Positions 23,691-63,820 of a stretch of 64,000 nucleotides of DNA are shown here, in pieces. The position numbers and the translations under genes were made by a program. Below the pieces are notes generated by a model. That model was not told the origin of the DNA. It ran no database searches and saw only the letters and a list, made by a program, of their open reading frames with translations. Position 1 is the first letter of the stretch. Every line of letters starts with the position of its first letter. The stretch comes from Mycteria americana (lineage: Eukaryota > Chordata > Aves > Ciconiiformes > Ciconiidae), in NCBI RefSeq assembly GCF_035582795.1, contig NC_134382.1:10978501-11042500 (forward strand), given 5' to 3'.

Positions 23691-24599
23691 ACGCTCCTGC
23701 TGTGCCCAGGGCAGTCGGGGAAGGAGCCCGGAGATCTCTCAGTCCCCGTCCGGAGGAAAAAGCAGCTCGTGACCTGCAGCGTAAAGATGGCATTTCACGG
23801 GCCTAAAGAAAGATGGGTTATATTTAAAAATTAGCCCCAGTTTTGTAGGGAAGTGCTGTGGTTTTCTGTGATACTGGAAACTGCTGACGGGGTTGCGGGA
23901 TGGGGAGCGGGAGCAGGACCACAGCTCCTAGCAGATCATCGTGCCGGCCGCCCCCCCGGCATGGGGATGGGGACGGGGAGGGTCGGGGGTGCCTGGGGGC
24001 GAGCCCCCCTTTCCCTCGGAGCTCCTGCACCCCTGCTCGCAGTGTCACATGTGGGCTGCAGGAAAAGCCGAGCTATTTTCCTTTCCTTGGCTTGTCCTTT
24101 GCAGAGGGACCCTCTGGGGGCTGCTTTAGTGTTAAACACCAGCAAAATGATTCATTTTTCAGGCCCGCGTTTCTTCACTATTTCCTGATATGTCGTAAGA
24201 CCTCCATGACGTGGGTTGGTGCCTCGCTGCCGCAGCTCAGCTGGGTTGCCCCGTGGCGTGCCCTGCTCGCCTCCCATGGGCAGCGAGGCGGGCATTGAGG
24301 GGGGCAGCGAGAACCCCGCTCTGCCCTCCCCGGGAGCCCCCGAGGTTTGGGGAGAGCAACCCAGTTGGGGAGTTGGCGGCACAGGGCAGGGGCGGGACGG
24401 GTTTGGGATCGGCGGCGGGTCAGGGTGGAAGCCCTGGGGTCTGGGGCTGGCAGGGCTGCCGTCCCCTGCCTGCCGCGCTGCCTGCCGCTGCCGGTGCCAC
24501 ATGCCCATCCGCCTCGCGAGCTTCTGCAACAGGAAGCGCCGTCATGCGCGCGCCCCAAAAACCCCCGTTTCTTCCTCTTTTTCTCTTCCCCTGTGGCAG

Positions 24600-24718
24600 G
24601 GGTAAGGCGGTGAGCGGCTCCGGGGAGCCCAGGCTGGCTCCATGTATCCCGAATCCACCACTGACTCCCCGGCGCGACTCTCGCTGCGGCAGACGGGCTC
24701 CCCAGGGATGATTTACAG
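24600..24718 (+). CDS. KCNAB2: KCNAB2 canonical first coding exon (coding from 24642)
   Basis: Acceptor CCTGTGGCAG at 24599, 42 bases of 5' UTR, then ATG at 24642. Encodes [19 protein letters not shown] and SPGMIY; human has Gly for Asp8. The Kozak context is weak (T at -3). Donor AG|GTAAGG, ends in phase 2. Confidence 0.95.
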
Positions 24719-27700
24719 GTAAGGGTGCGGGGCGGCGCTGGGGGGGGTCTGCAGGGCTTCAAACCTGGGGCCACGGCACCCAGAACCGCCCCGGCATGCT
24801 TCATGCAAAAACTGCCAGGACTGCAAAAACCCACGTGGCAGCAGCAGCGTTTTTGGGTGCTGATGCCTGTTACGGGAGGAGTGGGTACTTTTGGGGAGCG
24901 TGCCGGTGCCTGCTGCATGGTGCCCCCCGCGATGCGGCACGGGTGGGTGCCACCGACCCTTCTTGTGGCCACCGGCTCTGCCGCTCCGTCCCGCTCCACC
25001 ATTCTAATGGGGTTTGTGGCATCTTTCTTCTTTCTCCCCTTTGCTGTCGGAAGCGCGAGGTACGGGAGCCCCAAGCGCCAGCTCCAGTTCTACAGGTAAC
25101 CCAGCTCTTCACCCTCCCCAAAATCCCCCCCGGCAAGCAGACACGGCTGAAGCCCCGGCAGCCTCTGCCCGTGCCCGGGGTGCTGCCGGCACGGGCGCTG
25201 CTGGCACAGCGCTGCCCTGCCTCCGTGCAGGGGTCCCTCCGCGCGGGGCGGGCATCGCCAGTGCGGCACCGCGTCTTCGCCCGCTCGTGGGTCTGGCGGC
25301 GCGACGTGGGGACCCCACGTGTGTGGCCGGGTAGGTGGGGGCCGTCCTCGCCGGGTCCCCAAGCAGCGGAGCGTGGCCGGAGGGCTACTGGGGGGCAGCC
25401 GCCGCGGCGGGGTGCGGGGCTCAGCTCGGCTCAGGGGGAGCATCCCGCGCCAATGCTGCGCCGGGAAGAGCCCGCTGGCTTTTCCCAAGGGCAGCTCCAG
25501 GAACCGGGCCAGCCGCTCCGCTGCTCCTTCCATTAAGAGAAGCATCATTAAGTGGTGAAGAAGGCAACGCTTGCCCCCCACACCCCCTCTTACCGTCTGA
25601 AGCGAAGGCGGCACTTTTCCACGCACACCGTGCCAGCAGCCGCTTCGCTGCTCCCGGGGCCGCAGCAGCCCAGCGGCGCTGGCCCGGGTCCGGCCTGGCC
25701 GCAATGGGGCGGGGGATAGGGGGCTGCCCCCCAAGGGAGCCGCGGCCTCCCCGCTCCGTCCCCACGTGCAGCGGGAGGAGGAGAGGCTGGCCGGCACCGG
25801 GGTGGTTCGGTGGCGCTGCCAACGTCCCCGTCCCGGCGATGCACTGCTGCCGGCACCGCCGAGCCCGAGCCACGGGTGGGTTTTGGCTGCCAAACCGGCC
25901 AGGCGCAGCCGCGCACCTGAATCGCCGGACGCATCTGGTGTGAAAGGGTCCCGAGGCCGACAGGCAGGAGCCAGCTTGCCCGTAGGCTGCTGCCACGGGC
26001 GTCTGTCACCCAGCCCCGTTTCGGGGCTCCTGCCCAGAGGAGGCTGCGTTTTCGTCCTGCCGCAGCCCAGCTCTGACCGTGGGGACCGCAGGAGGGCTGC
26101 GTCCGCCGCAGGGGACCTGCTCCGCTCCCAGACGGCCCCCAGCGCCCCGGCTGTCCCCAGCACCCCGCGTGCCGATGGCGCGGGACCTGTCACTGCAAGG
26201 CGAGGGTCGGCCGCGGGCGGAGGCAGCGATGCCAGCGTTGATAAAGCAGCGGCGCATCCCGGGGCTTTTAGCAAAGCGGCCATGAATAATTTAGCTCCCC
26301 TTCGCAAGGAAGAAAATCCCCTAATAGGGCTAATGGAGCACAGCAAGAAAGCCGGGCTCTGGGGGGGCCCGTCGCAGCCGCCAATTGCTTTGGACGCCAA
26401 GCGCCGACACTCCCCTAATGCAAAAAAACCCAGCGGCCGCGCGTCTCTTATAGCTGCCCCGGGGCAGCCCGGCCACCCAGAGCTGTGCCGTTGATGAGCA
26501 GCGTCCCCGGCGCGCGGGTGAGTCGGGGCCGGCGGCGCAGGTGGCAAGCGGGGATGGGCACGGCCGGCGGTGCAGCCCGCTGCGGGCAGCAGGGGGGATT
26601 TGCTGGGCAGGGGAGCTCGGGATTTGGTGGCTTGGGGGGGGGGCTCGTCCGGGGTCTTTTTGGTTTTAGGCAGGCTATCGGTTGCCAACAAGTTCCCAGC
26701 TTGGCAAGCCAGGCTGGACAGACGCCTTTCCGAGCAGCTACCCTGCACGCCCAACCGTCACCCACTTGTTGTGCCCCTGACGCGTGCTAACGGCCCCCTG
26801 CTATCCCTCGGAGCCTGCGTCCGGTCCCCATCCCCGCTCCTTCCCCGCCAAACAGCCTCTCCCGCTTGGGCACGGCACTGCTTGGGCTTCGGCAGCGCCC
26901 GCAGCCCCCGCTGCTTCTCGTCCCTCAGGCAGCCGCAGGATTTCTGCTAAGGAACGGCCCGTGGACGAGCCCGCTGCCTCCGCGCTCCCTCTGCCGCCCC
27001 ATAACGTCGCTCAGCCGAAAATGAGGGAGGTGTTGAAATGAGGCGGGCGGTGGGTTCCCGCCCCGTTCCTCAAAGCAGCCCAGACCAAAGCCCCCGGCTC
27101 CGCTTGCTGCAGCCGTTTCATTGCAGCGCGGTGAAGCTGTAGCGCAGCGGTGCAGCCGGCTCAGACGTCGCCCAGCCGCTGTCAGGCAAGGGGATCCCGC
27201 CGGGGCGAGGGGTCCTGCCGGGGACAAGGGGGTCCCCCCAGGGCTGGGTGCTGCGCCCATGCCCAGCAGGAGCCACCGGCGCTGCCCTAATTAAAAGCCC
27301 CAGCCGTGGAGAAGGGCTGGTGCCAGCGGTGCCGGCTCCGGGCTCCGGCTTCGAGGCGTGGCAGGAAGAGGAGGCTGGCGGCCAGCGTTCAGTTTGGCTT
27401 TGCCGCAGGAGAGGGGTCCCCTTTCCACGTCTCCCTGCATTCCCAGGCCCTCGCTGCAGAGCAGGAGGAGCTCGGGAGGGTCCCCGGCGGCGCAGGGTGT
27501 CGCAGGAGCCCCGCGCGTTTCGGTCACCCCTTGCCAGCTGACGCTCCGTACCTTCGGGGTTTTCTTCTTTTTTCTTGAGGTCACACCTCAGTGGGAAAGC
27601 GCACTTTGCTTTTGGCTCCTGCTACTGTAAATTTGAGCTTTGCAGGGAAAGAAGAAACCACCAGTGGGAGCCCGGCCGGAGCCTGATGCCGGCGCAGCTC

Positions 27701-30700
27701 CGGCACGGTGCACTCCCAGCTCCCAGTGGCCGCTTCGGCACCAGCGCCGTGGTTTCGGCCCCGGTTCCCGCTCCTTCTTTCAGACAGAGGGACACTGCAG
27801 AGAGCTGCAGGGAAATCGATGCCGGTGCCACCACCGGCGAGATCCCAGCTGTAGAGGCGGTGAGCACCTCCAGCCTGGTGAGCTCCGGTGAGGAGCCCGC
27901 TCTGCAGCAGGCTATTTTCGGCAGCCCGCACCGGCTGGGAGGTCGCTGCCGCGGCTGCGGGGAAGGTGTTGGCTGGCGGCACGGGTTGCGGCAGCCTCCC
28001 GCAGGCGCAGCAGCCACCGGCGAGCTCCCGGCACCCACGGCCCCTCTGCGGATGCCCACCTTCCCCAGGGAGCCCCACGGGGCCACCTTTCCTGTCCTGA
28101 CCTCTCCCGCCTACCGGCACACGGTGCCGGATTCTCACCAGCGGCGCTTGTGTCACCGCCCCAGCCAGCTCCCGGGGCCCACCGCGTCCCTCGCAGGGAT
28201 GCAACCCAGTGGCAGCCCAGCTGGTGCGAGCTGGGAGCAGCGCGGCCGGGGCACGTGCCAGGCTGCAGCAGCTCACCGCGCTCGGGGCGGCTGTGGTCGC
28301 CCGGCCACGGGCAGCACCACGTCCCTTCCGTGCCGCGCTGCCGCCCTCGCCCTTTCCTTTGCTCTTCGGCTCCCCCACCAAGACTTTACTCCGCTGAGGC
28401 GACTGGCTTGGCCAGGGTCCCCGCTCTCCCCTCCCTGCGCCGCAGACCCGCCGCAGGTCCTCGCAAGGGCAGGTGCCACCGCTCTGGCATCGCGGCACGG
28501 GCAGGGCTCTGCCTTGAGCGGCGGCGGAGCCCGGTGTCGCAGCAGGGCGCTTTCCCAGCTCTCTCCGTAGCATCGCTGAGCGGTCGGCGGCGGAGCCAGC
28601 CCGCAGAGCCCACGCTTGGGTGGCGGGATGCTCTCCATGACGTACAGCGAGAGCCTGCGCAGCGTGGCCAGCCGGCACCCGCCCGAGTGGGGGCTGCCCC
28701 CGGCCCCCCGGCCGGCGGACGGGCCGGAGCTGCGGCGGCTGCGGGACGTGCGGGCGGCAGCGCGGGCGAAGACGCTGGAGGAGTTCCTGCGGATGCACGG
28801 GCTCTCCCTGGCCGACGGCACCGCCCGCGCCACCGGCATGAAGTACAGGTAAGGCGGCACCTGCCGGGGCGGCGAACGCGGCGAGGGCCGAGCGTGCCCG
28901 GCCCGAGATGCGGGGACGGAGCAGGGGATGCTGCTTAGCGCTGGTTTCACGCCTCATCGGGGAAAGCCCGGCCTGCAGGATTTCACTGGTTTCCCTGTGC
29001 CGCACTGAGGTCGGGAGGAGCCGGCGCCCGCGGCATGAAAGGCGGCCTGGCGCGGCGTGTGCGGGAGAGGCTGCAGCAGGTCAGCGCCGTTGTCTCTTGC
29101 TCGGTGATCTGTGATCTCCTCACTTGGATTTCCCCCGTGCTGTTGGGTAGCTGCAAGTGCAAACACACTCTGCGCTCTTAAAGATCAGGCAGTTGGAGCA
29201 AAACGCTCCGGAGGTGCTTTGTCCGTCTGACGAGCGTTCGCTGCAGAGCTGGCCCTCCCCTCATCTTGCACGGGGGTCCCGGGATGGCGCGAGGCGCCTC
29301 AGGATTTCAGCCGACTTTTGTCCTCGTTACCCACCCGTGCCGGGGAGGACATGCCGGGCCGCCGGAGCCGTTGGCCACGGCTCGTCCGGGGGCACGTGGC
29401 TGGTTTTCCCGGCGCATCCCTGCCCGCTCTCCCCCAGCACCGCAGGTGGGGCGATGGGCCGGGCACCCCCGGTAGCCCGGCTGGGGCTGGGGCCGGGGGC
29501 ACCGGGGCTGGGGCCGGGAGCTGTTCCCCCCTGTGAAAACGCAGGGGTGCCCCTCGCCCCCCTGCTGCAGTGAAGGCCCCGGGGCCAGCGGCTCTGCCGG
29601 CTCCTGCTGCGCCGTGCCGTGCCGTGCCGTGCCGTGCCGTGCCGTGCCGTGCCGCGCCGCACCGCGGGTCGGGTTCCCCTCTGCTCCCAACAACAGAGGT
29701 AACATTTACACGGTGGCAAGAGCCCATCTAATATTCATGGGGCCGTTATTTATTGATGGGGAGAGGCTGGCACAGGCACCTCCAGTCCTTCGGGCATGTG
29801 CCCGCTGCCCCCAAAATCGCTGGGGTTTCTCCTCCTCGGGGAGCTGCCGATTGCTGCCGGGTCCCCCTCGCCCCGGGGCTGGAGCCGGCGGGATTACCCG
29901 GCTAAGGAGCTTTGTGGCAGAGGGAAGCGGAGGAGATTACAAGATTTCTCATTAGGTCGGGGCTGAACGCGCGTAATTTCCCCCGCAAACCAAGCCCTGG
30001 CCCCTCTCCCTGCTCCTTACCCGCGGGCACGGCCAGCGCGGGCAGCCGGCACGTGGCCCCGGCCACAAAAGGGTGCTGCAGCGCGGCCGGCTCGCACCCC
30101 TCCTTCGTCAGGAGATGCTGGGCTGGGTTTCGCCTCGATCCGCGTAGCTCGCGCTGCGCGAAATTTGGGTGATGGGCCGCGGCCCCGAGGGGGGGCAACC
30201 GGTCCCGCTTCGGCGAACCGCCGGCCTCCGCGCCCAGGAGAGCCAGCGGCGTCGCCACCGCCTGCGCTCTCGCCCCAGAACCGAGTATTTGGCGAGGTGC
30301 ACGCGCGGCTGCCGGGAGGTTTGCGCTTCGGACTCGCATCCGCCCGAGAGCAGGGACGCCGCGCTGGCGGGAGGCAAGAGGCCCCTTCGCCCCTGGGGCC
30401 TCGGCCCCCCCCGCGCCCCAAGCCGGGGCCGGGCCGGAAGCGTTGCCCGCGGGGGATGCCCGGCGGGTGCGGGGGTCCCTTCGGGGGGCACCCGCCGCGG
30501 TGCTCCCGTTCCTGCCCCCCGCCTGCCCCGGCACCGCTTGCTCGCTTCCTGAGCTCATCAAATATTGAGGGCAGGAGGGCTGACGGGAGCCAGCTCCGCG
30601 CCCGCAGCCTCGCAGCCCCCCGCCGTCACGTCGGCGGAGCGGCGGCGTGTGGGCGCGCAGGAGGAGCTCCCCGCCTCGCCGGGGGCACCGGCTAAATTTA

Positions 30701-33700
30701 GGCAGCTGGCACGGCTGCCCACCAGAGCAGCATGCAGGTCTCCTTTGTGTGCTCCGAGCACAGCATCAAGAGCCGGAGCGCGGAGGACCGACTGAACCGG
30801 CAGAATGCCGGCAGCCCCAGCCTCGGCACCCGCGGCAAGTTCCGGGCAGTGGCCATGGTGGCCCGTAGCCTGGGGCAGCTCTCGGTGCAGAACGTCCCCT
30901 CCTCCAGCGAGTCCAGCATCAAGCAGCTGGGGATGAAATACCGGTAGGAGACGGGCGCGCTGCTCGGGCAGGCAGATCTGCAGCCTGCTCGGCTGCCTTC
31001 GCTGCTCCTCGTCGAGATTTAGGGGGCGGCGGGGGGGGGGCTGGGGGGGCCGGGTGTGCTGCACTGCCCTAATCCCTGGCTCGCGTCCTGCTCCGTAGGT
31101 TTCTCGGTGTTAAAAGTGCTGACCGTGCGCCTCCGTCGCCTTCCGTACCGTTTGCTGCTGTCCCCTCTCGGCGCGGATTTGATTCAGGCTCGCGTAAAAC
31201 CAGCGGAATGCGGGGGGAAGGGACTCTAAAATTTGGGGTAGGATTAGTAGGATCCCCGGCGCCTGCCGAGCCAGGCAGGCTGCCAAGCCAGGGGGGTCTG
31301 AGAGTCGCGGCGTACGTTAATCTGCGGGCTGCCATGGCATCCTTACGGCACGGCCAGAGACTCGCTGCCCTGCGAAGCGTGCGCGGAGCTGCAAGCCAGG
31401 ATTCGGCCCTTGGCTGCCCGCGGTGGGTTTGGAAAGGAAGGGTGGTGTGTGCACCTTGTGCCCCCGGCCAGCACCCGCTGGGTGAACACCCTCCACGTCC
31501 CTGGCACTGGAGCAGAGCGCTGGGGGGATGAGCGTGCACCCGGGCGCGGGGCTGGGGGCTTCCCCCGGTGAGCACGCACGCCATGGTACGGCTGACAGCC
31601 GCTGCCCGCCCTCGCTGCAGCCCAGATGAGACCGGCACTGGGCTGCGAAGCGCATCGGGCCGGCAGAGCGCGGGGATGAGAACAGCCGTCACCCACCATC
31701 GTTGTCCAAATCAGCCGAGTCCCCTCGCCCAGGCGCAGGGGAGGGGTCCAGGGCGGCTCCCTCCGGCTCTCGAACGCCGAACCCTTGCAGTGGCGGCACT
31801 GGGGCCACGTGCGCTGGCACCCCCCAGGCTTGGCACTCGCGCCCTGCGGTCGCGTCCCCATCCGGAGGAGGAGCGCGCCGGGGGACCCTCTCCCGGGTGC
31901 TGGGTGCCTGGCTCGGGGGTCCCCGCCGGCGGCCGCGGGGGGGGACGGTGGCGCAGGGGGATGCTCCGTGCAAAGAGACAGGACGGGAAGGCCATGGCAC
32001 AGCGCGGCGGGATGCTCCTTCCCGCAGAGGCGGCGGGGGCTCGGCCTCCCCCAGTACCTGCCAGCGTCTCCGTTGGGCAACCAGGCAAGACGCTTTTGGG
32101 CAAGAAAGCCAGGAGCAGCGACGCGCTGCCGGTGCCCACCCGCCCCGGAGGACCCCGGCGATGCCCCTGCAGCCTGGAATGGCCGGGACAGGGCTGGTGC
32201 CATCCCCTCCCCACCACGACCCCCCATCACGGGGCCTTGAGCCGCCGCCGCCCCATGGCCGCGGCCTCTCCCCGCCATGAAATGCTCTAAAAATAATGCA
32301 GATTGGCGGGAGGAGCGCCCACGCCTCCAGATGTTGGGCAATAATGCGGCAGCGCGGAAGGAAGATGCCCCGACTCGGCTCGGCCCGCAGTTCACCGCCG
32401 CCGCTGTCGGACCGTGGCTGCTCCCTGCCCGGCTCCCCGTGCCCGTGCCGGCAATGCCGGTGGTGGAGGTGCCTCCCGGTTGCTACGCGACACCCGCGCG
32501 GGCGAGCTGCCACGGCTCACCTACACTTTATTTATTTTAACGCTCGTTACTCGAGCCTTTGTCATTTCTAACGAGAAACTGGCTCTCCATCACCGCAGCG
32601 AAGGCGTCTGCCAGCCCGGCCCCTTTCCCCAAAGCGGTTCTCCGGCTCCTTGTGCCGGCCAAATTTTCAGGGGTGCTCCATTTCTCTGGGATGCCGCTCC
32701 GCTCCCGAGCACCCTCTCCCTCTGGTGACCTGTGCCCCCCGTGCCACGCCGCAGAGAATGGGCACGGCTCGTGCCACGTGTGAGACGCTCCAGGCCTGAC
32801 CGCCGGTGTGCCGTCTCCCCCTGCTCCTGCCCTGTCCCCCGGCACCGGCAGCGCTGTCGGGGGAGCCGAGCACCCCGGCCTCGTGACGGGAGCCGCTTTA
32901 ACCAGGTCACTGCCCGCTGCCACGCAATTGCCCTGCCGGGCACAGCAGTTATTTTGTGTGCGGGAAACAGCGTCGCTGCACCGGTGCTGGCCGTGCCGCC
33001 GGCGAGCCGCAGCGTGCCCGGCCTGGGATGGCTCTTTAACCAGTCGCAGGGGACCCTCGCTGCGGGACCGTCCCGGCGGGGACGGGGATGGGGATGGGAG
33101 CGGCACTAGGGACCGCGACTCACTGGCACGCGGACACTGAGACGGTGTTTTGGGGCTCTCTGGCGGCTTTCCTAACGGGCCTCTGTCTTCCAGGAACCTC
33201 GGGAAGTCTGGGCTGCGCGTGTCCTGCCTGGGCCTGGGTAAGTGCCGGGGTTTGCCGCGGCCCCTCGGCTGCTCCTCCATCCCGCGGCTGCTGCCGGCGC
33301 TCCCCGGCGAGGGCGGCGCTCACCTGCTCCGGCGATGCTTTGCAAGGGAGGGAGAGGGTTTTCCTCCGGCCTGGCAGTGGTTTTGAGAGACGGCCCAGAC
33401 GTTGTCAAATTATTTTCTCTTGTTCTCCTCTGACGTGATAGGAAGCGACCGGGCTGTGCCGGGAGCGCTGTGCCACACGCGGCGGGGCCAACCACGGCTG
33501 CCGCGTGCCGGGGCTGTGCCGGGGGAGCCAGGGTGGGTGGCCGGGGGCTTGGGGCGGTGGCGTTCAGTGCTCACCGCGCTCACCATGCGTGCACCCTCTC
33601 TCCTCCACAGGGACATGGGTGACTTTTGGAGGGCAAATCACAGATGAGGTAAGGATCGCGCCCCCTTGCCCCGTCCCTCCCCAGCCTTTCCCGAACGAAG

Positions 33701-36700
33701 GGGGGGACGGATGGGGCCGGCACGGCCACGGGTGCTGTTCTCGGTGCACGTGGTGTGCCGGAGATCACCAGCGCACGCCTCCGCGCTCTGGCTCGCGGCC
33801 ACCCCCTTTGCCAACCCTCCCCGCTCTCCCCTCGCAGATGGCGGAGCAGCTGATGACTTTAGCCTACGACAACGGCATTAATCTCTTCGACACGGCAGAA
33901 GTCTATGCCGCCGGCAAGTAGGTACCCCGCTTCAGCAGCGGCACAAGGGGCCTCATCCTGCGCCCTGGCCTCCGGCAGCGCCGAGCCGCAGCGGCGCTGG
34001 GAGCCTCCCGGGTTTCCCGGCTGCAAAGCAGCTGCCAGGACGGGGCAGGGAGCGCCTGCTCGTGGCGGGGGTGATGGCTCGTGCGGACCTGCGCTGCCTG
34101 CGGCTGCCTGTGCCACGCGAGCACGGCTGCGCCCGGGGCGCAGTGGCCCAGAGGCATCGCAGCGTGCCCACGCGCCCACTTAAAAATAGCAAGCTCGCGC
34201 GCCAGGGAGCAGCTCGGCTCTTGGCGCTGCAGCTGGAGGGGGACACGGCGTCCCCGCGGCCACAGCGTTTGCCTCTCAGTCTGCGGGGCCGTCCCTGCTG
34301 GCGGCTGACATCCCCTTCCCTTGCAGGGCCGAGGTGGTGCTGGGGAACATCATCAAGAAGAAAGGGTGGAGGTAAGCCGGACTTCGTTCCTGTGCGGCAA
34401 AGCCGTCACCGCGGTGCCGACGGGCTGGGGAAAGCTGGCGGAGCAGCCCTGGGGGTGAACGCGCACGGGCAGGGAGCAGGCAGCAGGCAGCAGGCAGGGC
34501 ACGCGGGGCTTTGCGGGTGCTGCCGCCGGTGACTCTCTCTTTCTCCCTGCAGACGGTCCAGCCTGGTCATCACCACCAAAATCTTCTGGGGAGGAAAGTA
34601 GGTAGCGCACCCGCCCCGCGGCAGAGTGGCCGGAGCGCGCCGGGCTCTCACTCACCTTTCCTTTTCCAGGGCCGAGACGGAGAGGGGCCTGTCCCGAAAG
34701 CACATCATAGAAGGTAGGGATGCCCACCGGGTGCTGCCGGCCTCGGCGCCAGGCTGCGCCGGCACGGGCTGCCTCGCCGGCTGGCGGCACAGAGCCTGGC
34801 GTGCCTGACGGTCCCGTCGGTGTGGCAGGTCTGAAGGCGTCGCTGGAGCGGCTGCAGCTGGAGTACGTGGACGTGGTGTTTGCCAACCGGCCCGACCCCA
34901 ACACGCCGATGGAAGGTGGGTGCCGCGCCACGGCGCACGCTCCTCCCCGCCGCCTTTCGTCGCTGTCGCGGTCGGTTTGCGCCAGGCTTTTACTTCACGG
35001 GCGTTTTCCCTTCCTGAGCAGAAACCGCCCCTCCGCTGCCACGGTCAGGCCACGCCACGGTTAAGTCTCTGCCACCCCCAGCCCGGCACCGGGACCCCCC
35101 TCGGGCCGCAGCGGGGGTGGGTTGGTGGCGCAGCACCGGGTTGCTGCCCCTGTCCCGGCGAACCGCTTGCTCCGCTCCGCCGGCAGCAGCCGACTCCGCT
35201 CTCTCTCAATCTCTCTTTTATCACCAGGGAACCTGTTTAGTTCCTCCAAGTCCAGGACTTTCATCGTAGAAGGTACTCCCTGCCCGCACTCTGCCCGCCG
35301 GCCGCCGCCTGTGCCCCAGCGGCATTTCCTGGGGCAGAACCCCCACTCCTCTGAGATTGCCACCCCCGTCCCCCCGCCCCGAGCAAACCCCGCCATAAAA
35401 CGCACAGGCAGCGGCAGCACAACAACCCCCCCCGCCCCTTCAGACCATCGCGCAGTTAAAGGGGAATAAAGCGAAGAGGCTCCCCAGCCTCCTCGGGGTC
35501 CTCGCCACGGGGCGCCCTTTGCAGCCGTGCCGGGGACCGCAGCAGGGACCACGGCAGGGTCCCTCCTCACCAGGGCAGCTGTGAGCGTGCCGGGGCGCGC
35601 GCTCCGGCACCGGCCAGGTGAGCCTCGTGCCCGTCGCTCTCCCCGCTACCCGCCTTTGGCTGCAGGAGCGCGCCTTGGCTTGGCCCCAGCCCGCATGGCT
35701 CAGGGCCAGCTCTCCCCAGAGACCCCCCCGCGCCCCTTGCACGGGGTCCGGGGTTCCCTCCTTCTCCTGGGTCTCGGTGCACGGGCGATGCTTCGGGTCC
35801 CTCCCCCTGCAGCGGTGCCAAGCACGGTGCCTGCGCGGGTGCCCTGCGGGGCGTGGGGCCGGTGCCAGGAGCCGAGCGGCTGCTCTCCGTGCCGGGAGAG
35901 CCCCGGCATCGCCGGCGGCATGTCAGGGTTGGCCGTGGTCCCCAGCACGTCCCGAGCGGCTGCTCCCTCAGTCCCCGTCCTGCTCCTTCTCGGAAAGCAT
36001 CCTCTGGAACAACCCAGCTCCCGCCTCCCGCCTCGGCGCTGGGGAGCGGGACGCTCGCCAGCCGTCGGTGCGGCGTGAGCCCCCTCCTGCCGGCGCGGCG
36101 CCCGCTAACCCCCACTGCCGCTCTCCCCTTCCCTCCTGGCAGAGACGGTGCGAGCCATGACCCACGTCATCAACCAGGGGATGGCCATGTACTGGGGGAC
36201 CTCGCGCTGGAGCTCCATGGAGATCATGGTAGGGGCCCGGGGGCAGCTGTGGCGGAGCAGCCCCGGTGCCGCCGGTGCCGCTGATTTAATTCGACAGCAG
36301 CCGTCGGGAGCCAAGCGCTTGCAGATACGCTTGAGCCTTAATTATCTTTCGGGGCAGCTCTCAGGGGGGTGGGCAGGGGGCTCGGGGTGCGGCGGGGCGC
36401 TGAGGGTGCTGGCTCTTCGGCAGGAGGCATACTCGGTGGCCCGGCAGTTCAACCTGATCCCGCCGATCTGCGAGCAGGCCGAGTACCACATGTTCCAGCG
36501 GGAGAAGGTGGAGGTGCAGCTCCCCGAGCTCTTCCACAAGATAGGTACGGCAGCGGGGGTTCTGCCCCAGCCCCCCCCACACAGCGCTCCCCAAAGCCCG
36601 GCGCTGCCGTGGCCAGGCGCGGCACAGCCCGTGTCCCCCGGGGCCGGCCAGCCCCTGTGCCGCGTTCCCCGGGGGAGCTCGGGGGCGGCAGCGTCACCCC

Positions 36701-37899
36701 CCGCTCTGCTCTGCCCCAGGCGTCGGAGCCATGACCTGGTCCCCGCTGGCCTGCGGGATCATCTCGGGGAAGTACGACGGGGGGATCCCCCCCTACTCTC
36801 GCGCCTCGCTGAAGGTGAGCCCGGCTGGGGCCGGGGGGAGCGCAGCGGGACGGGCAGAGCCGGGGGAGCGGGGCCAGGGGTGTTGCAAGATCCCCATGGG
36901 AGCAGGAGGTCCAGGAGCCGTGACCCGGGGGGGTCTGGGGATGCCCTGCCTGCACGAGGTCCCGGTACGCCCCAGTCCCGCTGTGACACCCCCTCCGAGC
37001 CCCCTCCCGCCCCCCAGGGATACCAATGGCTGAAGGACAAGATCCTGAGCGAGGAGGGCCGGCGGCAGCAGGCGAAGCTGAAGGAGCTGCAGGCCATCGC
37101 CGAGCGCCTGGGGTGCACCCTGCCCCAGCTCGCCATCGGTAAGGGGGCCGGGGGGTGCGGGGGGGTCGCCGGGGGCGGCCGAGCCGCGCTCAGGCTCTGC
37201 TCTCCCTCCCGCCCCAGCCTGGTGCCTGCGCAACGAGGGGGTCAGCTCCGTCCTGCTGGGTGCCTCCAACGCCGACCAGCTGATGGAGAATATTGGAGCA
37301 ATACAGGTCAGCGCTCCCCACCTCGTCGGCACGCCGGCAGCGCGCGCCGGGGCAGGCTTCGCTGCGGGGAAGCAAGCAGACCCTGCTCGCGGGGCTCTAA
37401 CGGGGCAGCGCCTGCCTGCGCGTGCTTTGCTGCTGCAGCGCTGCGATGCAATGCGCGCTCCTACGGTGCACGGTGCTGCGATGCACGCTCCTGCGACGCT
37501 CGCTGCTGCGACGCTCTGGGTAGGAAAAGGAGGTTGTGAACCTCGGGCGAAACAAAAATTATGGGTTTTGCTTGATCCGAAGCTGAGCGGCAGAGACGAG
37601 GCTTTGCTGGGCTGAGAAGGCAGGGGACGAGCCCGGCCCAGGCTTTTCCGTAACCGCGTGGCTCAGTCGGCGAGCTGGGGCTCGTAGCATCGAGGTGGCG
37701 GGGCGGAGGCGGCGAGCGCAGCACGGCCATGTGCCGCCCGCAGCTGCATCCTCCCGCGTGCACCGGCGGCACGATCCCGACTCCCAACGGCGTCCCCCGT
37801 CCCCCGCAGGTCCTTCCGAAGCTGTCGTCTTCCATCGTCCACGAGATCGATAGCATCCTGGGCAACAAACCCTACAGCAAGAAGGACTACAGATCCTAA
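24642..37899 (+). CDS. KCNAB2: KCNAB2, voltage-gated K+ channel beta-2 subunit (complete coding region)
   Basis: Cytoplasmic auxiliary subunit of Kv1 channels with an NADPH-binding aldo-keto reductase fold. It forms a tetramer under the channel and affects trafficking and redox sensing (established knowledge). Canonical exons: 24642-24718, 25054-25095, 33194-33237, 33611-33648, 33838-33917, 34327-34371, 34553-34597, 34670-34713, 34829-34915, 36143-36228, 36424-36544, 36720-36814, 37018-37138, 37218-37306, 37810-37899. They total 1104 bp, 367 residues plus TAA, equal to human. Catalytic Asp85, Tyr90, Lys118 and Asn158 are all present, in [16 protein letters not shown] and VVFANR. The C-terminus is [10 protein letters not shown]. 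Alternative first exons at 28628 and 30732 and a 45-bp cassette at 35228 are listed separately. All introns are GT-AG and every phase closes. Confidence 0.97.
25054..25095 (+). CDS. KCNAB2: KCNAB2 14-residue cassette exon
   Basis: 42 bp. Encodes [13 protein letters not shown] with split codons at both ends. In human, including or skipping these 14 residues distinguishes two Kv-beta-2 splice forms. The exon is 3n and phase-neutral, so skipping keeps the frame. Donor AG|GTAACC. Confidence 0.93.
25096..28627 (+). other. KCNAB2 intron
   Basis: About 3.5 kb between the 14-residue cassette and the next alternative first exon. It is GC-rich with a short AT-richer island at about 26275-26345. No conserved frame recognised. 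Confidence 0.5.
28628..28848 (+). CDS. KCNAB2: KCNAB2 alternative first exon, Kv-beta-1.2-like
   Basis: ATG at 28628 (G at -3) opens 73 codons plus 2 bases and ends at AG|GTAAGG in the same phase as the other first exons. The frame begins [17 protein letters not shown]. Its C-terminal part, [12 protein letters not shown] plus TGMKYR, resembles LEKFLRVHGISL plus TGMAYR of the KCNAB1 (Kv-beta-1.2) alternative N-terminus. Joined to 33194 it reads [13 protein letters not shown]. The upstream 5' UTR boundary is not defined. Confidence 0.8.
28849..30731 (+). other. KCNAB2 intron and presumed promoter of the next first exon
   Basis: About 1.9 kb. Contains a GCCGT pentanucleotide repeat (29611-29650) followed by an AT-richer island (29690-29765) in GC-rich DNA. 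No coding exon supported. Confidence 0.5.
29611..29650. repeat. (GCCGT)8 pentanucleotide repeat
   Basis: Eight perfect gccgt units, continuing into two gccgc units. It lies between two KCNAB2 alternative first exons. Confidence 0.95.
30732..30943 (+). CDS. KCNAB2: KCNAB2 alternative first exon, Kv-beta-1.1-like ball N-terminus
   Basis: ATG at 30732 (A at -3) opens 70 codons plus 2 bases and ends CG|GTAGGA. It begins [20 protein letters not shown] and ends LGMKYR. Kv-beta-1.1 and Kv-beta-3 start MQVSIACTE, with the same Cys7 that gives redox control of N-type (ball) inactivation. Spliced to 33194 it reads in frame into [10 protein letters not shown]. This predicts a Kv-beta-2 isoform with an inactivation-type N-terminus, which the canonical form lacks. 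Confidence 0.85.
30944..33193 (+). other. KCNAB2 intron before the common core
   Basis: About 2.25 kb. Contains a perfect MEF2 consensus at 32287-32296. No exon supported. Confidence 0.5.
33194..33237 (+). CDS. KCNAB2: KCNAB2 common exon, core start
   Basis: 44 bp. Encodes (R)[15 protein letters not shown], invariant among Kv-beta proteins. Acceptor CTTCCAG, donor GTAAGT. All alternative first exons join here. Confidence 0.97.
33611..33648 (+). CDS. KCNAB2: KCNAB2 core exon
   Basis: 38 bp. Encodes (G)[12 protein letters not shown]. Acceptor CTCCACAG, donor GTAAGG. Confidence 0.97.
33838..33917 (+). CDS. KCNAB2: KCNAB2 core exon with catalytic Asp85 and Tyr90
   Basis: 80 bp. Encodes [19 protein letters not shown] then AEVYAAGK, carrying the aldo-keto reductase Asp and Tyr. 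Donor GTAGGT. Confidence 0.97.
34327..34371 (+). CDS. KCNAB2: KCNAB2 core exon
   Basis: 45 bp. Encodes [14 protein letters not shown]. Acceptor CCCTTGCAG, donor GTAAGC. Confidence 0.97.
34553..34597 (+). CDS. KCNAB2: KCNAB2 core exon with catalytic Lys118
   Basis: 45 bp. Encodes [16 protein letters not shown] (split ends). Acceptor CTCCCTGCAG, donor GTAGGT. Confidence 0.97.
34670..34713 (+). CDS. KCNAB2: KCNAB2 core exon
   Basis: 44 bp. Encodes [14 protein letters not shown]. Acceptor CTTTTCCAG, donor GTAGGG. Confidence 0.97.
34829..34915 (+). CDS. KCNAB2: KCNAB2 core exon with Asn158
   Basis: 87 bp. Encodes [20 protein letters not shown] then PDPNTPME, carrying the NADPH-site Asn. Donor GTGGGT. 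Confidence 0.97.
35228..35272 (+). CDS. KCNAB2: KCNAB2 45-bp in-frame cassette exon
   Basis: Acceptor TTTTATCACCAG, donor GTACTC. Encodes [15 protein letters not shown] when spliced between exons 34829-34915 and 36143-36228; 3n length and matching phase at both ends. It would insert 15 residues, Ser-rich and basic, between Glu167 and Glu168, in the loop after the strand bearing Asn158. I have a vague memory of a similar SSSKSRTF insert in some mammalian KCNAB2 transcripts, but cannot confirm it. Confidence 0.75.
36143..36228 (+). CDS. KCNAB2: KCNAB2 core exon
   Basis: 86 bp. Encodes [20 protein letters not shown] then RWSSMEIM. Acceptor CCTCCTGGCAG, donor GTAGGG. Confidence 0.97.
36424..36544 (+). 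CDS. KCNAB2: KCNAB2 core exon
   Basis: 121 bp. Encodes [20 protein letters not shown] then [17 protein letters not shown]. Human has Thr for Ile in NLTPP. Donor GTACGG. Confidence 0.97.
36720..36814 (+). CDS. KCNAB2: KCNAB2 core exon
   Basis: 95 bp. Encodes [18 protein letters not shown] then [13 protein letters not shown]. Acceptor CTGCCCCAG, donor GTGAGC. Confidence 0.97.
37018..37138 (+). CDS. KCNAB2: KCNAB2 core exon
   Basis: 121 bp. Encodes [20 protein letters not shown] then [18 protein letters not shown]. Acceptor CCCCCCAG, donor GTAAGG. Confidence 0.97.
37218..37306 (+). CDS. KCNAB2: KCNAB2 core exon
   Basis: 89 bp. Encodes [20 protein letters not shown] then LMENIGAIQ. Acceptor CGCCCCAG, donor GTCAGC. 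Confidence 0.97.
37810..37899 (+). CDS. KCNAB2: KCNAB2 last coding exon and stop
   Basis: 90 bp. Encodes [20 protein letters not shown] then PYSKKDYRS and TAA at 37897-37899. Acceptor CCCCCGCAG. Confidence 0.97.

Positions 37900-41995: not shown

Positions 41996-63820
<21,825 letters not shown>

Follow-up and report, generated by a model that had tools for sequence, protein, structure and literature searches.

A Kvbeta1.1-type alternative first exon in the KCNAB2 gene of Mycteria americana that may encode an inactivating Kvbeta2 isoform

Results

Organization of the KCNAB2 locus

We analysed a 64,000-nucleotide stretch of Mycteria americana DNA, referred to here as the window. Spliced alignment identified a core of 13 exons extending from 33194 to 37899, in which 324 of 328 residues were the same as in Kvbeta2. 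A PDB search with the spliced protein returned Kvbeta2 structures as the top chains, 7ej1 (best) and 3lut, and both alignments started just ahead of the core. As judged from its sequence, the gene at this locus is KCNAB2. Its conventional exons are as follows.

24642 to 24718, forward strand: canonical KCNAB2 first coding exon (MYPES start), ending in phase 2 at donor CAG/GTAAGG; tblastn E 8e-10 to Kvbeta2
25054 to 25095, forward strand: 42-nucleotide cassette exon of 14 codons (13 residues plus a split Arg)
33194 to 33237, forward strand: KCNAB2 exon 2 with the common acceptor, opening with the second part of the split Arg codon
33611 to 37899, forward strand: twelve further KCNAB2 core exons up to the stop codon, placed by spliced alignment

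The cassette exon preserves the phase of the MYPES exon, and its presence or absence would presumably give forms of the Kvbeta2.1 and Kvbeta2.2 type. CHD5-like SNF2 helicase exons were found on the reverse strand at 52059-55302, with six matches of 79-92% identity to a CHD4/5-type stretch that do not separate CHD3, CHD4 and CHD5. We take CHD5 to be the expected neighbour of KCNAB2, and the helicase exons would fit this arrangement if they belong to CHD5.

A candidate additional first exon joins the core in frame

A further candidate first exon was found between the MYPES exon and the core.

30732 to 30943, forward strand: Kvbeta1.1-type ball-and-chain first exon, open over its 212 nucleotides (70 codons plus 2 nucleotides), phase 2
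30944 to 30949, forward strand: splice donor GTAGGA, the weakest among 16 scored donors

The coordinates, frame, start and junction given for this exon in the initial annotation were exact, with the donor at 30944 and the Arg codon rebuilt at 33194. An in-frame TAG stop codon lies at 30699-30701, ten codons ahead of the ATG, and the base at position -3 is A. Translation of the exon finishes with ...GMKY, followed by two nucleotides of the split Arg codon. The unspliced frame past 30943 would terminate immediately (CGG TAG), and splicing of 30943 to 33194 restores Arg as CG/G so that the frame runs on into NLGKSG of the core. This exon and the MYPES exon both end in phase 2, as had been claimed, and splicing the new exon to the core in silico predicted a Kvbeta2 isoform of 398 amino acids. 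Both the MQVS-type start and the Cys7 residue noted earlier are present in the translation, and the tip also keeps the heme motif C7xxH10 (C7-S-E-H10). When donors were scored with a frequency matrix, CCG/GTAGGA reached 2.47 bits compared with 2.94 bits for the next weakest of the 16, a value exceeding that of 94.3% of the GTs in the 24-38 kb interval. A donor of this strength could be expected of an exon that is regulated or of minor use, or of one that is falling out of use.

The region upstream of the exon

Inspection of the sequence ahead of the ATG revealed a possible regulatory site.

30692 to 30701, forward strand: CTAAATTTAG, which matches the MEF2-type consensus perfectly and sits 31 bases ahead of the ATG at 30732

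The TAG of CTAAATTTAG doubles as the in-frame stop codon that precedes the ATG, and a CAGCTG E-box at 30703 adjoins it. CTAAATTTAG is the sole CTAWWWWTAG match in the window, although at least one such match occurred in 13 of 100 window shuffles and its position was noticed post hoc. No MEF2-type site was present within 300 bases upstream of KCNAB1 exon 1.1. CTAAATTTAG and the E-box are a possible promoter element. The observed/expected CpG ratio upstream of the exon was 0.79, which marks no promoter because it is similar to that of the neighbouring intron controls (0.77 and 0.76). A search for RE1/REST-type sites found two matches with three mismatches, compared with 1.07 expected, neither of which was near the exon.

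The exon encodes a Kvbeta1.1-type ball and chain

Within the window, tblastn aligned the exon with human Kvbeta1.1 at 38 identities in 74 columns (E 3.3e-19). The local score for this comparison was 176, whereas the best of 5000 shuffles reached 50. Human Kvbeta3 gave a score of 77 (maximum of 44 in 2000 shuffles), and most of the likeness was confined to the initial ~21 residues and to the GMKYR end. Because the Kvbeta1.1 score was 176 and the Kvbeta3 score 77, we classify the exon as Kvbeta1.1-type; of the proposed closeness to both Kv-beta-1.1 and Kv-beta-3, the first part holds and the second is weaker than suggested.

The peptide was also compared with the whole genome (1.35 Gb in 279 contigs, with KCNAB2 on contig C18 and KCNAB1 on contig C7). 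The search returned the exon itself, C7:1973325-1973543 (E 2.9e-13, 53%) and a chance match with an E value of 9.6. We identify the C7 sequence as KCNAB1 exon 1.1, since it is identical to the human exon at 68 of 74 residues and the KCNAB1 core matches start 35 kb further on. The two exons from this genome align over their full length, with 38 of 71 aligned residues identical. The N-terminus encoded by the exon is expected to be disordered. Searches of PDB and Pfam with the 70-residue exon peptide gave chance matches only, and a peptide scan of genome and viral contig collections without vertebrates found no relative, as expected.

Among the best-kept stretches are the MQVS tip, C7, EH and, within the chain, KFRxVAxxARSLG. 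Tip residues I5A6 of Kvbeta1.1 read F5V6 in the KCNAB2 exon, and the chain is three residues shorter. These changes would be in keeping with an exon that is expressed but whose N-terminus does not block, serving instead in cytoskeletal attachment, trafficking, or calmodulin or redox sensing; one study describes binding of the Kvbeta1.1 N-terminal domain to the actin cytoskeleton as well (PMC8994742). However, the MQVS tip, C7, EH and KFRxVAxxARSLG are among the parts kept best, and the retained C7xxH10 fits a ball, such that we consider a non-blocking role unlikely.

Residues implicated in the control of Kvbeta1.1 were also compared. Hemin is reported to weaken the N-terminal block of Kv1 pores by Kvbeta1.1 via C7 and H10 (PMC7239824), and calmodulin to work on a site in the rat Kvbeta1.1 chain consisting of R37, R41, R48, F40 and F53 (PMC4614385). 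The latter report also cites redox control in which R37 and R48 couple to E265 and E349 of the core. Aligned to Kvbeta1.1, the KCNAB2 exon keeps R37, F40, R41 and R48, and has Leu in place of F53. E231 and E315 of Kvbeta2, which by length offset would be the counterparts of E265 and E349, are Glu and unchanged here. On these grounds, the 398-residue isoform would be expected to confer N-type inactivation that responds to redox state and heme, and its control by calmodulin would possibly be weaker.

Codon usage and divergence suggest selection

Two of the three reverse frames across the exon are also open in this GC-rich DNA, so that an open frame is by itself no evidence for an exon. GC content at codon positions 1, 2 and 3 was 0.56, 0.49 and 0.91 in the exon and 0.57, 0.41 and 0.86 in the core, and the GC3-GC2 gap of the exon was reached by none of 2976 overlapping intronic frames. 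When 71 codons were paired with those of KCNAB1 exon 1.1, there were 20, 20 and 40 differences at positions 1, 2 and 3. The corresponding pN/pS was 0.35 (bootstrap 0.24-0.50), a value obtained with saturated synonymous sites that sums over the two lineages from the time the genes diverged and is compatible with a recent loss of use. The exon shows apparent signs of purifying selection.

A weak donor (2.47 bits) and an upstream CpG ratio lacking contrast to the intron controls might instead mark a relic, that is, an ohnologous exon that was once used, lost its promoter or splicing, and has stayed intact by chance. This explanation is difficult to reconcile with the intact ATG, frame and donor, the third-position bias, and the 38 of 71 residues kept relative to KCNAB1. 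When neutral evolution was simulated at assumed rates, the exon was still intact in 6% of runs at 0.1 substitutions per site and in 0.5% at 0.2, making unselected survival unlikely past about 0.1-0.2 substitutions per site. We therefore regard a relic as quite unlikely.

A second alternative first exon has a chain like that of KCNAB1 exon 1.2

Another exon, absent from the initial annotation, was matched by the Kvbeta1.2 query as well as by the Kvbeta1.1 query.

28628 to 28848, forward strand: second alternative KCNAB2 first exon (MLSMTYSES...), ending in a split Arg and phase 2; donor CAG/GTAAGG (strong)

A second in-frame ATG is present at 28637. Alignment with exon 1.2 of the KCNAB1 gene in this genome gave a score of 92 (5000-shuffle maximum of 50), and alignment with human Kvbeta1.2 gave 85 (maximum of 46 in 2000 shuffles), which fell to 61, against 48, without the last six residues. 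The score against Kvbeta1.1 was 71, and with the shared end removed it was 39, a value reached by 7 of 2000 shuffles. Here too, none of the 2976 intronic frames showed as large a GC3-GC2 gap as the exon. Because the genome-wide search with human Kvbeta1.2 gave an E value of 0.57 for this exon, the Kvbeta1.2-like assignment stands on place, phase, periodicity and shuffles jointly. The first ~40 residues are unlike both Kvbeta1.2 and Kvbeta1.1, and this tip may be of an additional, new kind.

A direct-repeat search of 24000-33300 showed that the MYPES exon and the 1.2-like exon have similar 3′ ends (family D7), amid a GC-rich background. A short tandem array with a GCCGT-type unit occupies 29595-29659, between the two alternative first exons.

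The 1.2-type and 1.1-type first exons occur in matching order in KCNAB1 and KCNAB2

On contig C7, exon 1.3 of KCNAB1 is at 1949525, exon 1.2 at 1953113, exon 1.1 at 1973325 and the core from 2008282. Thus, the order in KCNAB1 is 1.3, 1.2, 1.1 and core, and that in KCNAB2 is MYPES, 1.2-like, 1.1-like and core. In mouse Kcnab1, exon 1.3 is placed 169 kb and exon 1.2 is placed 132 kb ahead of exon 1.1 (PMC6509479). Because first-exon order matches in the two genes, the 1.2-like/1.1-like pair of KCNAB2 looks inherited from an ancestral Kvbeta gene; the simplest reading would be that first exons of the 1.2 and 1.1 types were already in that gene before the vertebrate genome duplications. The MYPES exon had no similarity above shuffles to exon 1.3 or to other Kvbeta1 or Kvbeta3 ends. 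No Kvbeta1.3-like exon was found at KCNAB2, the lowest E value being 0.39 among the window matches listed, and a genome-wide Kvbeta1.3 query found KCNAB1 plus one chance place only.

The GC-rich stretch is rich in open frames, but a chance frame is contradicted by the shuffle and genome-wide scores, and mis-assembly from KCNAB1 by the ordered position of the 1.1-like exon with the 1.2-like exon and by the separate KCNAB1 exon 1.1 on C7, which differs at 80 of 213 nucleotides and shows that the 30732 exon is no copy, leaving either explanation highly improbable. The placement of the exon in KCNAB2 as an alternative first exon is supported by the core (324/328), the in-frame split-Arg join and the full-length Kvbeta1.1 homology.

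KCNAB3 was not detected in the core search of the genome; among the best candidates scored there were 16 matches, eight on C18 (KCNAB2) and eight on C7 (KCNAB1). PMC3711925 also names KCNAB3 among the genes apparently missing in songbirds. A genome search with the Aldo_ket_red family gave 12 matches, none of which was at KCNAB1 or KCNAB2, indicating that the family search misses short exons. Among the eight loci kept from this search, the overlapping L003 and L008 match the Kvbeta core at 38%.

Discussion

Our preferred model is that 30732-30943 is a working, ancestral alternative first exon of KCNAB2 that yields an inactivating Kvbeta2 isoform of 398 residues, and we assign this reading a probability of roughly 0.7 on the basis of the genomic comparisons described above. 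According to this model, the exon and its KCNAB1 counterpart were both inherited from an ancestral vertebrate Kvbeta gene. A promoter just upstream of 30732 would drive transcription, and splicing of 30943 to 33194 would generate a Kvbeta2 subunit whose N-terminus is of the Kvbeta1.1 type. Four of these would hang beneath the Kv1 tetramer, and a free N-terminus would enter the open pore and block it, resulting in N-type inactivation. As in Kvbeta1.1, redox state and heme would be predicted to influence this block through Cys7 and His10. A broader proposal is that Kvbeta2 is not inherently non-inactivating, that KCNAB2 in this lineage keeps a functional ancestral inactivating first exon together with a Kvbeta1.2-like one, and that promoter choice switches its product between helper and blocker; we put the odds of this proposal at even.

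In the largely open-access literature searched, no Kvbeta1.1-type first exon in KCNAB2 was described. One text match for MQVSF came from a paper that was unrelated as judged by its title and abstract. Automated annotation of KCNAB2 may already list the exon. It would represent a further Kvbeta1.1-type ball exon, in a gene thought to have none.

Published descriptions of Kvbeta2 present it as having no ball or as not producing N-type inactivation (PMC7239824, PMC8994742), and as the predominant Kvbeta subunit of mammalian brain Kv1 complexes (PMC9317154). If KCNAB2 also makes a ball-bearing isoform, the gene name no longer predicts inactivation of the Kv1 current, and expression studies probing just the shared core would overlook the switch. 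The matching exon sets suggest that inactivating N-termini are ancestral, with non-inactivating Kvbeta2 reflecting promoter use or later loss. With no KCNAB3 detected, KCNAB1 and KCNAB2 would be the sole sources of Kvbeta balls in this genome. KCNAB2 of zebra finch is reported as strongly regulated across song nuclei (PMC3711925), and isoform choice would therefore be directly testable there.

Comparison with known Kvbeta N-termini places the exon among its relatives. Canonical Kvbeta2 shares its gene, core and splice phase, but the MYPES N-terminus is without similarity to the Kvbeta1 and Kvbeta3 balls above shuffles. Kvbeta3.1, encoded by KCNAB3 (human sequence), has the same MQVS tip, Cys7, SRSxEDRL and GMKYR end, whereas its residue 10 is Gln and its chain is Gly/Pro-rich where the KCNAB2 exon has KFRxVAxxARSLG. 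In the case of exon 28628-28848, the chain and end match KCNAB1 exon 1.2, but the MLSMTYSES... tip is unlike MHLYKPACAD... and has no Cys, and the Kvbeta1.2 cysteine and histidine motifs described in PMC7239824 are not kept. Finally, although the 30732-30943 exon differs from KCNAB1 exon 1.1 in having F5V6 rather than I5A6, three residues fewer and Leu at F53, the two share the MQVS tip, C7xxH10, the KFRxVAxxARSLG chain, the GMKYR end with a split Arg in phase 2, and their position as the last alternative first exon ahead of the core.
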